From Mycetocola reblochoni REB411 (GTDB lineage Bacteria; Actinomycetota; Actinomycetes; Actinomycetales; Microbacteriaceae): 64,000 nt of DNA. Under the pieces are notes generated by a model. That model searched no databases, had not been told where the DNA came from, and saw only the letters and a program-made list of their open reading frames with translations. Of the stretch, positions 55,598 to 58,241 are shown piece by piece. Where the stretch lies: NCBI RefSeq assembly GCF_900163835.1, contig NZ_FUKR01000032.1, positions 146,080 through 210,079 on the forward strand. Reading direction: 5' to 3'. The position numbers and the translations under genes were made by a program. Numbering within the stretch: the first letter of the stretch is position 1; every line of letters starts with the position of its first letter.

Positions 55598-55692
55598 GGT
55601 CGTTCGGACCGATCTGGTCCCAGATCCCCATCCATCCCGACCTGGCATCGGGGAAGAGTGCCAGGGCGTATGGCTGGGCGTCTGAGTCCAGA

Positions 55693-56124
55693 TCAGAACA
55701 GTCCGGGGATCACCTCCTCATCGGTGTTGGAGAACGCCGCCTCCTGGGCGGCCAGGTAGGTGTCCCATGCCTCGCTGTCCCAGATCTCGGCGCGGTTGCC
55801 CGCCCCGATCACGGTCAGTTCGCGGTCGAGCCCGGCGTAGCCGCGCAGGGCGGAGGGGACGGTGATCCGGTTCTGCTTGTCGGGGCTCTCGGAGTGCGCA
55901 CCGGAAAGGAACACGCGCAGGTAGTCGCGTGCCTGCTTGCTCGTGACGGGCGCCTGGCGGATCTTCTCGTGCATCTGCTCGAACTCGCGCTGGCTGAACA
56001 CGTAGATGCAGTTCTCCTGCCCTCGCGTCATCACCACTCCCCCAGCCAACTCGTCACGGAACTTGGCGGGAAGGATGATGCGCCCCTTCTCGTCGAGCTT
56101 GGGCGAGTACGTGCCGAGCAGCAT
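55693..56124 (-). CDS. mraZ: MraZ, transcriptional regulator of the dcw cluster
   Basis: 143 aa from ATG 56124, which has GAGAGG 7 nt upstream; a GTG two codons earlier is too close to that site. Two AbrB-like domains contain [21 protein letters not shown] and ...[16 protein letters not shown], with two DxxGR/DKxNR loops. MraZ binds direct repeats with about 10-bp period upstream of its own gene and represses the dcw operon in other bacteria. GTGGAG repeats with that spacing lie just upstream. Confidence 0.96.
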
Positions 56125-56138
56125 GTCCACCCCTCTCG

Positions 56139-56175
56139 CTCCACCAAGCTTCCCGTTGGCTCCACTTTACTCCAC
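56139..56175 (-). promoter_or_regulatory. MraZ-box-like repeats before mraZ (minus strand)
   Basis: On the minus strand GTGGAG occurs at 56175-56170, 56165-56160 (pair with exactly 4 nt between, 10-nt period: GTGGAGTAAAGTGGAG) and again at 56144-56139, directly before the mraZ ribosome-binding site. The arrangement matches the direct-repeat architecture known for MraZ sites (TGGGN repeats, 10-bp period, in E. coli). TAAAGT between the boxes may serve as a -10. Confidence 0.6.
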
Positions 56176-56257
56176 CTCATGGGAAAAAGCTCGACAAACG
56201 CGCAGAAAAACGCGAGCCGTCCGATCATGATCGCTGTATTTACGGGCGAGAATGCCG

Positions 56258-56273
56258 GTGGAGATAAGTGGAG
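56258..56273 (+). promoter_or_regulatory. MraZ-box-like pair, plus strand (first)
   Basis: GTGGAGATAAGTGGAG: two GTGGAG copies 10 nt apart, mirror-oriented to the mraZ-proximal pair 83 bp away. A TTTACG...GATAAG combination here could be a divergent promoter. Confidence 0.45.
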
Positions 56274-56434
56274 TGAAAAAGCAGCCTCCACCACTCGACG
56301 CCGCGCCGCGCCGAGGGTCGGTGCCGCGGCGGCCCGGTTCCGGCCGCAGAAATCGCGGATCACGGCGACGACGACCGTCGATCGCTCCACCGCCGGGGCG
56401 AACGGAGTCTTTGCCGCGCCCGGCGCCGACCGCC

Positions 56435-56475
56435 GTGGAGCGCAGTGGAGGACGGCGCGGTGGAGCGCAGTGGAG
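56435..56475 (+). promoter_or_regulatory. MraZ-box-like double pair, plus strand
   Basis: GTGGAGCGCAGTGGAG is present twice (56435-56450 and 56460-56475), each with the 10-nt period, 25 bp apart. No plus-strand gene follows for 670 bp. Confidence 0.45.
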
Positions 56476-56644
56476 GAGCTCGCGCGACGAGCGGAGCGGC
56501 CTGCACCGCACCGAGCGCGGTCAGCGACAGTCCACGGGGCCAGCGGCCTCGGCGGCGTCCGCACCGGAAGTCGGACCGGCGGGAGCGGCGGCGTCCGCAC
56601 CGGGAGGTAGGCCCGTTGGAACGGCGGCACCGCCGTCCGGGCAG

Positions 56645-56673
56645 AAAAAACGGGCCCGCCGAAGCGGGCCCGT
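56645..56673 (-). terminator. Intrinsic terminator of the DUF3040 gene
   Basis: ACGGGCCCGC-CGAA-GCGGGCCCGT (10-bp stem) followed on the minus strand by six T residues, 21 bp past the stop. The only classical U-tract terminator in the window. Confidence 0.92.
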
Positions 56674-56693
56674 CTCAGAGGTGGGGTTCGGGA

Positions 56694-57068
56694 TCAGCGC
56701 TCGTTGCGGCGGTCCCAGCGGTCGTTCATCCGGTCCATGAAGGTGGCCGACGATGCGGCCCGAGCGGCGGCGCGCGGCTTCTCCGACTGTGCCGGCGTCG
56801 ACGACGACGACTTCGAGGGGGTGATGGCGAAGAGCACACCGCCGAGCATGAGGACGAAGGCGACGATCCCGATGATGGGGCTGGAGAGCCCGACACCGGC
56901 GATGAGCCCGCCGATGCCGACGAGGACGATGAGAGCGCCGATGACGATGTTGCGGTAGCTGGGCCGACCGCGTCCCGAGCCCATCGGAGAGACGACGTCG
57001 GCGTCGCTGCTGTAGAAGTTGCGCTCCATCTCGTTCAGAAGTCGCTGCTCCTGCTCTGACAGTGGCAT
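56694..57068 (-). CDS. DUF3040 family membrane protein
   Basis: 124 aa from ATG 57068 with an AGAGGGAG site. The family start MPLSEQEQRLLNEMERNFY is followed by two membrane helices (about 40-60 and 63-82), and a Ser/Ala/Arg-rich tail. Conserved in actinobacteria next to mraZ; function unknown. Divergent from the prenyl synthase gene. Confidence 0.9.
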   Translation of the reverse strand: MPLSEQEQRLLNEMERNFYSSDADVVSPMGSGRGRPSYRNIVIGALIVLVGIGGLIAGVGLSSPIIGIVAFVLMLGGVLFAITPSKSSSSTPAQSEKPRAAARAASSATFMDRMNDRWDRRNER

Positions 57069-57131
57069 GGTCTCCCTCTTCCCGATGCGGTCCGTGCCGA
57101 TCGCACCAATTCTACCGTTCCCGCCGGAGGC

Positions 57132-57143
57132 TAGGCTAGCCAC
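57132..57143 (+). promoter_or_regulatory. Candidate -10 (TAGGCT) of a leaderless prenyl synthase gene
   Basis: TAGGCT at 57132-57137 lies 6 nt before GTG 57144, with no ribosome-binding site between. Confidence 0.45.
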
Positions 57144-58241
57144 GTGACCGAAAGCAGCCTCCTCCGCCAGCGCGTCGACTCGACCATCACCGAACTGATC
57201 GACGCGCGCACCCCCATTCTCCGCGCGATGAGCGACGAACTCGACGCCGTGTCCGCCGTTTCCCTGCGCTTTCTCAGCGGTGGCAAGAGGCTGCGCGCCC
57301 TGTTCTGCTACCGCGGCTGGGAGGCCGTCACCGGCGACGTCCCCGAGGCGGGCACCCCGGAGGGCAGAGTCCTCGACCAGCTCGCCGCTGCCCTGGAGCT
57401 CTTCCACGCCGCCGCCCTGGTTCACGACGACCTCATCGACAACTCGGACACCCGCCGAGGCCACCCCGCCGCGCACGTTCAGCTCGCCGACGAGCACAGG
57501 GCTCGGGGCTGGGCCGGGGACGCGAACGCCTTCGGCCGCTCGGCCGCCCTGCTCCTCGGCGACGTGATCCTGGCGTGGAGCAACGACGCCCTTGATGCCG
57601 CCGCGAGCACGCTCGGCGCGGTCCGCGCCACCTCCGTCCGCGAGGAGTACTCGACCATGCGCCAGGGCGTCACCCTGGGGCAGTACCTCGACATCGTCGA
57701 GGAGCAGGCCTGGCCCACACGCGTCGATGGGGAACGCGTGCCCCGGGCGCTCGACGTCCTCACCCACAAGTCCGCCAGGTACAGCATCGAGCACCCGCTG
57801 GTTCTCGGCGCACTCGCCGCGGGCGCGGAGGATTCACAGGTAACGGCGCTCCGGGACTACGCGCTCCCGCTCGGCATCGCCTTCCAGCTCAGGGACGACC
57901 AGCTCGGTGTGTTCGGCGACAGTGCGCTGACGGGCAAGCCGAGCGGCGACGACCTCACGGAGGGAAAGCGCACGGTGCTCATCGCACGGGCCATCGAGCA
58001 GGGCGACGCCGCGACGCGGTCGCGACTGAACACGGCGCTCGGCGACCGGTCTCTCGACGACGCTGCCGTCGCCGAGCTCACGCAGCTCATCCGCTCCACC
58101 GGCGCCGCCTCCGACGTCGAGACCATGATCGCCGACGAGCTGGACACCGCCCTGGCCGCCGTGCCGCGAGCGACCACGCACAGGTCGAGCGCGCTCTGGC
58201 TCACCGAGCTCGCCCACGAGGCTACGCGTCGCGAGGCCTGA
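57144..58241 (+). CDS. idsA: Polyprenyl diphosphate synthase (IdsA-like)
   Basis: 365 aa, GTG. First aspartate-rich motif VHDDLIDNSDTRRG (Asp95, Asp96, Asp99), GGKRLR at 47-52, and second motif FQLRDDQLGVFGD near 246. The enzyme joins isopentenyl units; the chain length cannot be fixed from sequence, though geranylgeranyl-range products are usual for idsA2-type neighbours of pknL. The product could supply menaquinone or carotenoid side chains. The gap to the next gene is 134 bp and has nothing recognisable. Confidence 0.92.
   Translation: MTESSLLRQRVDSTITELIDARTPILRAMSDELDAVSAVSLRFLSGGKRLRALFCYRGWEAVTGDVPEAGTPEGRVLDQLAAALELFHAAALVHDDLIDNSDTRRGHPAAHVQLADEHRARGWAGDANAFGRSAALLLGDVILAWSNDALDAAASTLGAVRATSVREEYSTMRQGVTLGQYLDIVEEQAWPTRVDGERVPRALDVLTHKSARYSIEHPLVLGALAAGAEDSQVTALRDYALPLGIAFQLRDDQLGVFGDSALTGKPSGDDLTEGKRTVLIARAIEQGDAATRSRLNTALGDRSLDDAAVAELTQLIRSTGAASDVETMIADELDTALAAVPRATTHRSSALWLTELAHEATRREA

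Follow-up and report, generated by a model that had tools for sequence, protein, structure and literature searches.

A putative auxiliary MraZ operator, inverted and in helical phase, upstream of mraZ in Mycetocola reblochoni and its relatives

In the available sections of the published accounts, the MraZ boxes of Escherichia coli, Burkholderia cenocepacia, and Mollicutes are GTG repeats that recur every 10 bp at the mraZ promoter (PMC7761207; PMC8475190). The Burkholderia site consists of four 7-nt GTG-containing repeats with 3-nt spacers, giving a 10-bp period (PMC7761207), and the Mollicutes box is made of direct repeats (PMC8475190). MraZ is described there as an octameric ring that recognises GTG repeats with this period (PMC7761207, citing Fisunov et al.), and the PDB contains MraZ structures. 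The locus studied here has repeats of the same kind, period, and location. Whereas the boxes in these sections are promoter-proximal arrays only (PMC7761207; PMC8475190), a second, inverted array lies here about 100 bp upstream in helical register. No account of a second or looping MraZ operator was found in the open-access literature searched.

At lac O1–O3 and gal OE–OI, two sites of one repressor lie tens to about 100 bp apart and keep their helical phase, as is known from mutagenesis. The present locus is similar in having two sites of comparable separation with the phase kept, which here was inferred from natural spacing. It differs in that the lac and gal sites are palindromes bound by a tetramer or a pair of dimers, while direct-repeat arrays and a ring-shaped AbrB-type protein are concerned here. 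Class I activator sites such as CRP sites share the helically quantised distance to the promoter; unlike them, the distal site at this locus is built from the units found in the promoter-overlapping box. Neither a MraZ box nor a looping operator is new as a kind; the new part would be their combination and its conservation.

GTGGAG pairs and the promoter-proximal box

The window, the whole 64-kb stretch of M. reblochoni DNA that was analysed, contained mraZ on the minus strand at 55693–56130, with 145 codons from the GTG at 56130 and an alternative ATG start at 56124. The product matched Pfam PF02381 (E 4.5e-39) and, above cut-off, NCBIfam TIGR00242. Its named near relatives, with 82–87% identity, were from Herbiconiux, Microbacterium sp. 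MPKO10, Cryobacterium, and Labedella. Pfam placed rsmH/mraW after mraZ, and the Rfam mraW RNA motif (RF01746) was seen at the mraZ–rsmH junction (55602–55699, minus strand; 50.3 bits, gathering score 50). The gene to the right of the interval (56697–57069, minus strand, 124 aa) had been assigned to DUF3040 in an earlier note on this DNA; this name was not upheld, as no Pfam family and no meaningful NCBIfam match was obtained. After this gene, a G+C-rich hairpin followed by a run of T (56650–56686, minus strand) appeared terminator-like by eye and was unreported by the consensus scan.

A motif count on both strands of 56139–56475 gave 11 GTGGAG copies, beginning at 56139, 56160, 56170, 56286, and 56385 on the minus strand and at 56258, 56268, 56435, 56445, 56460, and 56470 on the plus strand. 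The earlier note had counted 11 with less than one expected, and the recount agreed, the window-wide shuffle rate giving about 0.26 copies per 340 bp. Over the whole window, 47 copies were observed and the shuffle mean was 48.9. The copies at 56286–56291 and 56385–56390 (both minus strand) were single units without a partner. Rescanning returned precisely the four GTGGAG-N4-GTGGAG pairs of 10-nt period claimed before, all exact: 56160–56175 (minus strand) and 56258–56273, 56435–56450, and 56460–56475 (plus strand). The outer two were not independent: a single 25-bp unit is present there twice (56435–56484). With one mismatch allowed, the same four pairs were the sole matches in the window (shuffle mean 0.81), and four or more pairs were given by 2 of 100 shuffles. 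The exact pair occurred five times in the whole genome (2.9 Mb), four times upstream of mraZ here; its reversed control pattern occurred 0 times. The fifth pair, on contig C37 (28831–28846), was the only one outside the mraZ region.

The promoter-proximal MraZ box had two exact units at 56160–56175 (minus strand). TAAAGT between them (56164–56169, minus strand) is likely the −10 element of the mraZ promoter; a consensus promoter scan of the window region called no promoter, the proximal box included. Conservation was investigated in 107 non-redundant loci, mostly of Microbacteriaceae with some Micrococcaceae, from which identical upstream regions had been removed. GTGGAG was at the proximal anchor position in 103 of the 107 and again 10 bp on in 81. 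The single downstream copy adjoining the mraZ ribosome-binding region (56139–56144, minus strand), whose offset was occupied in 3 of the 107 loci, could be part of the proximal box or separate from it. The profile of 100 order and 60 class loci showed TTGAC followed by GTGG-type units, which surround TANNGT and lie at −10, 0, +10, and about +20, in agreement with the Burkholderia four-repeat and Mollicutes direct-repeat sites. Only two adjacent units were exact in the box of the window.

The proximal three-unit array was found exactly once, less than 200 bp from mraZ, in each of 11 mraZ-bearing genomes picked from the class set (11/11). In one genus (g205), no mraZ match was obtained in any of 10 genomes, although rsmH was present. 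The array was found in 0/10 of these genomes, and their 1500 bp before rsmH contained no unit pairs in either orientation. This co-occurrence, as seen in the genome sequences, links the proximal array with MraZ. It is of little use for judging the distal box, which is also missing from many mraZ-bearing class loci and from several mraZ-bearing families. A genome-wide scan for a MraZ regulon elsewhere, with the three-unit pattern and one mismatch, gave nothing usable: it returned 7 matches, fewer than the 21 of the reversed control, and the mraZ locus was not among them.

The distal inverted box and its spacing

The distal two-unit box at 56258–56273 (plus strand) was an exact pair, inverted relative to the proximal box and separated from it by a gap of 82 bp (98 minus 16). 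Both boxes consisted of tandem GTG-containing units of 10-bp period, the proximal one at the mraZ promoter, as in known MraZ boxes, and the distal one beside it. The sequence features suggested that 56258–56273 is likely an auxiliary MraZ operator. Among the 107 loci, CTCCAC (read on the mraZ-sense strand) was found at a gap of 79–84 bp in 77, in 40 of them at exactly 81 bp; in the remaining loci it was elsewhere within 40–130 bp (22) or had no occurrence there (8). Little DNA was conserved beyond the distal box in this set. The unit adjoining the interior motif was CCTCCACC-rich, and the outer unit was looser than the proximal units, with CTCCAT common. The pattern CTCCACN{66,96}GTGGAGTAAAGTGG was present in at least 245 of 398 genomes and at least 63 of 85 genera of the family, with no control match among the matches listed, and in 84 of 396 genomes of the order.

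An order set of 100 further regions from 19 other families was compared; these were hand-picked from the better-E-value mraZ matches listed and were not a random draw. A two-unit inverted box (score of at least 10 of 12) was present in 155 of the 207 loci of both sets, and direct-orientation GTGGAG pairs were present in 2 of 207. In a shuffle-controlled scan with a slightly different anchor, 263 of 267 loci were usable, and the box was found in 86/106 loci (mostly Microbacteriaceae), 67/98 loci of other families of the order, and 16/59 loci of other orders. Dinucleotide shuffles gave 1.6, 2.1, and 1.0 boxes for these sets, respectively; counts vary slightly between scans because the anchors do. 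The shuffles were the control relied on, rather than hexamer controls, which in the 207 loci gave 55 matches for CACTCC, 25 for CACCTC, 4 for CTCACC, and 0 each for GAGGTG and CCTACC. We think that the CACTCC and CACCTC matches are off-register overlaps with real C-rich arrays. By this comparison, the distal box is not needed everywhere for MraZ control, since no two-unit box reached the threshold in 31/98 order loci and 43/59 class loci.

The gaps of the 155 boxes fell into steps of 69–73 bp (n = 42), 79–84 bp (n = 89), 90–95 bp (n = 12), and 102–105 bp (n = 8), with 4 beyond. Thus 151 of 155 boxes lay within the four steps, and none lay at 74–78, 85–89, or 96–101 bp. The best-fit period was 11.2–11.6 bp, with R of 0.66–0.79 depending on the subset. 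With the second anchor, 83/86, 65/67, and 9/16 boxes of the three sets were in steps, and one box was at 74 bp. At least 225 unit matches listed in 198 genomes of the family and order, which overlap the earlier loci, left gaps of 74–78 and 86–88 bp empty. The class set was retrieved only after the steps had been noted; all 9 of its boxes nearer than 110 bp were in steps, eight of them in the 70 step, and 7 others lay beyond 110 bp. Shared ancestry of the loci inflates these counts, and the Rayleigh values treat the loci as independent.

Judged by these spacings, the stepped gaps with a period near 11 bp are helical phasing, and stepping by helix turns, as expected of a looping operator pair, was found comparatively. 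As the units repeat every 10 bp, a register slip by one unit could imitate part of the stepping. Slip alone is disfavoured because stepping is also seen for the interior motif TGACC[TA]G, which lacks a repeat of this kind, and because the box keeps its phase: it stayed in step when the distance from motif to box changed (motif 65/box 71; motif 75/box 91; motif 77/box 103–104). Part of what would have refuted the proposal of the earlier note was a lack of conserved pair spacing in close relatives. For 56258–56273, the orientation and the helix-phased distance were kept over many families, and the spacing of the near pair withstood the comparison.

The interior motif and the outer pairs

A motif was also conserved between the two boxes. 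In the 107 loci, the Microbacteriaceae interior was TTCC..GTAATT..GGG, with the dyad TTCC..GGGA, and the window had the dyad TCGC-N11-GCGA at 56231–56249, whose equivalence was inferred from position. In the order and class loci, other families had TGACCTGCG, also TGACCTGCGnnnA(T/C)G, which is not a dyad. The common position suggests that the Microbacteriaceae dyad and TGACCTGCG are one element. Of 71 motif matches in 160 regions, 49 fell inside the 31-bp stretch examined, and TGACC[TA]G lay 64–67 bp before the proximal box in 42 of these 49 and 75–77 bp before it in 7. Among 100 order loci, 30 had motif and box, 12 the motif alone, 35 the box alone, and 23 neither. In this comparison, the TGACCTGCG motif is conserved, keeps a helical phase to the promoter, and can be separated from the distal box. 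A third protein may bind there and either bend the DNA or compete with a loop. In four Salinibacterium loci, a TGTGGATAA stretch was seen by eye between the two boxes; it resembles a DnaA box.

The outer inverted pairs, 56435–56450 and 56460–56475 (both plus strand), are the first and second copies of the 25-bp unit. A scan from 126 bp outward with up to one mismatch found 53 far inverted boxes in 42 of 102 loci and 0 in direct orientation. Of ten control units, two close permutations gave 7 and 8 matches and the others 0–2. The far boxes were at most weakly phased (R 0.38 at 10.5 bp, n = 53), and their distance was not conserved. By sequence, the pairs of 56435–56475 belong to this variably placed class, and they are predicted to act as additional sites like the distal box.

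Looping and alternative explanations

We consider it on balance probable that 56258–56273 is an auxiliary operator from which a MraZ oligomer would bridge both boxes, looping about 100 bp over the division-cluster promoter. MraZ would bind the distal box as it binds the known direct-repeat box, and the multi-site ring would hold both arms. A ring that binds DNA on several faces could grip inverted arrays with centres about 86–119 bp apart, making a small loop across the promoter, and mraZ and the dcw genes would then be autorepressed more strongly. Such bridging would require a fixed orientation and helical register. A sponge, a looping operator, and a divergent transcript had all been suggested earlier; looping fits the conserved and phased near pair best, and the divergent transcript is disfavoured. 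A sponge does not explain the near pair, since it needs no fixed phase, and is possible for the outer pairs, since their distance is not conserved.

The main rival is an activation site, where upstream MraZ, or a factor on the interior motif, would touch RNA polymerase from the right helix face without a loop. Helical phasing is likewise expected of such an activator, and the box and the motif both have the phase to the promoter that class I sites show; the same phase is compatible with looping and activation. The motif distances of 64–67 and 75–77 bp correspond to about −80 and −91 relative to the predicted start, positions from which class I activators work, and the motif without the distal box in 12/100 order loci is also in keeping with activation. 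We nevertheless regard activation as unlikely, since the promoter-overlapping box and the distal units share their sequence and the distal box holds its phase when the motif-to-box distance changes. Ownership of the distal box by another protein would account for its CCTCCACC-rich inner unit and looser outer unit. It is less probable again, as the hexamer and 10-bp period are shared with the MraZ box, the phase is fixed to that box, and the far boxes use the same unit.

The mirror image that the distal box makes of the promoter box would suit a divergent, unannotated transcript on the plus strand whose promoter or leader is under MraZ control. Its units are separated by GGAAAT-type bases instead of the proximal TANNGT, however, and neither a consensus promoter nor conserved transcribed sequence was found beyond the box, where conservation was slight. 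An Rfam scan of 56130–57300 gave no family at gathering score, and the plus-strand ORFs appeared chance-like by eye; a divergent small RNA or ORF was rejected on these grounds, and the divergent reading is highly improbable. The same slight probability is given to an RNA-level signal on the mraZ-sense strand, such as a terminator, a C-rich small RNA, or a Rho site. A strong hairpin lay beside the box in 29/77 loci (z below −1.5, mononucleotide shuffles), T4 or longer followed in 17/77, and nine or more dyad pairs occurred in 10.4% versus 3.8% of controls. Yet there was no average covariation (5.22 pairs versus 5.11 in mixed halves), and helical phase to the promoter is unexpected for RNA. The hairpin between the boxes was therefore rejected, its dyad fitting Microbacteriaceae and not the TGACCTGCG families. 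Chance in a G+C-rich repetitive tract, within which the outer pairs do sit, is next to impossible: shuffles gave 1.0–2.1 boxes per set versus 16–86 observed, and four of the five exact pairs of the genome lie here. Chance is thereby untenable for 56258–56273, while it may account for the outer pairs considered by themselves.

Returning to the looping operator, we propose tentatively, with confidence somewhat short of even, that actinobacterial MraZ is in general a looping repressor. Its ring would clamp a pair of inverted operators so that the loop spans the dcw promoter and encloses a conserved factor, and the arrangement would be older than the order and have stayed in helical register since. 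A second operator in register over many actinobacterial families suggests that the ring shape of MraZ serves to fold promoter DNA. The old puzzle of why MraZ forms rings would become testable by one phasing experiment, and a further conserved site would be added at a division-gene promoter.
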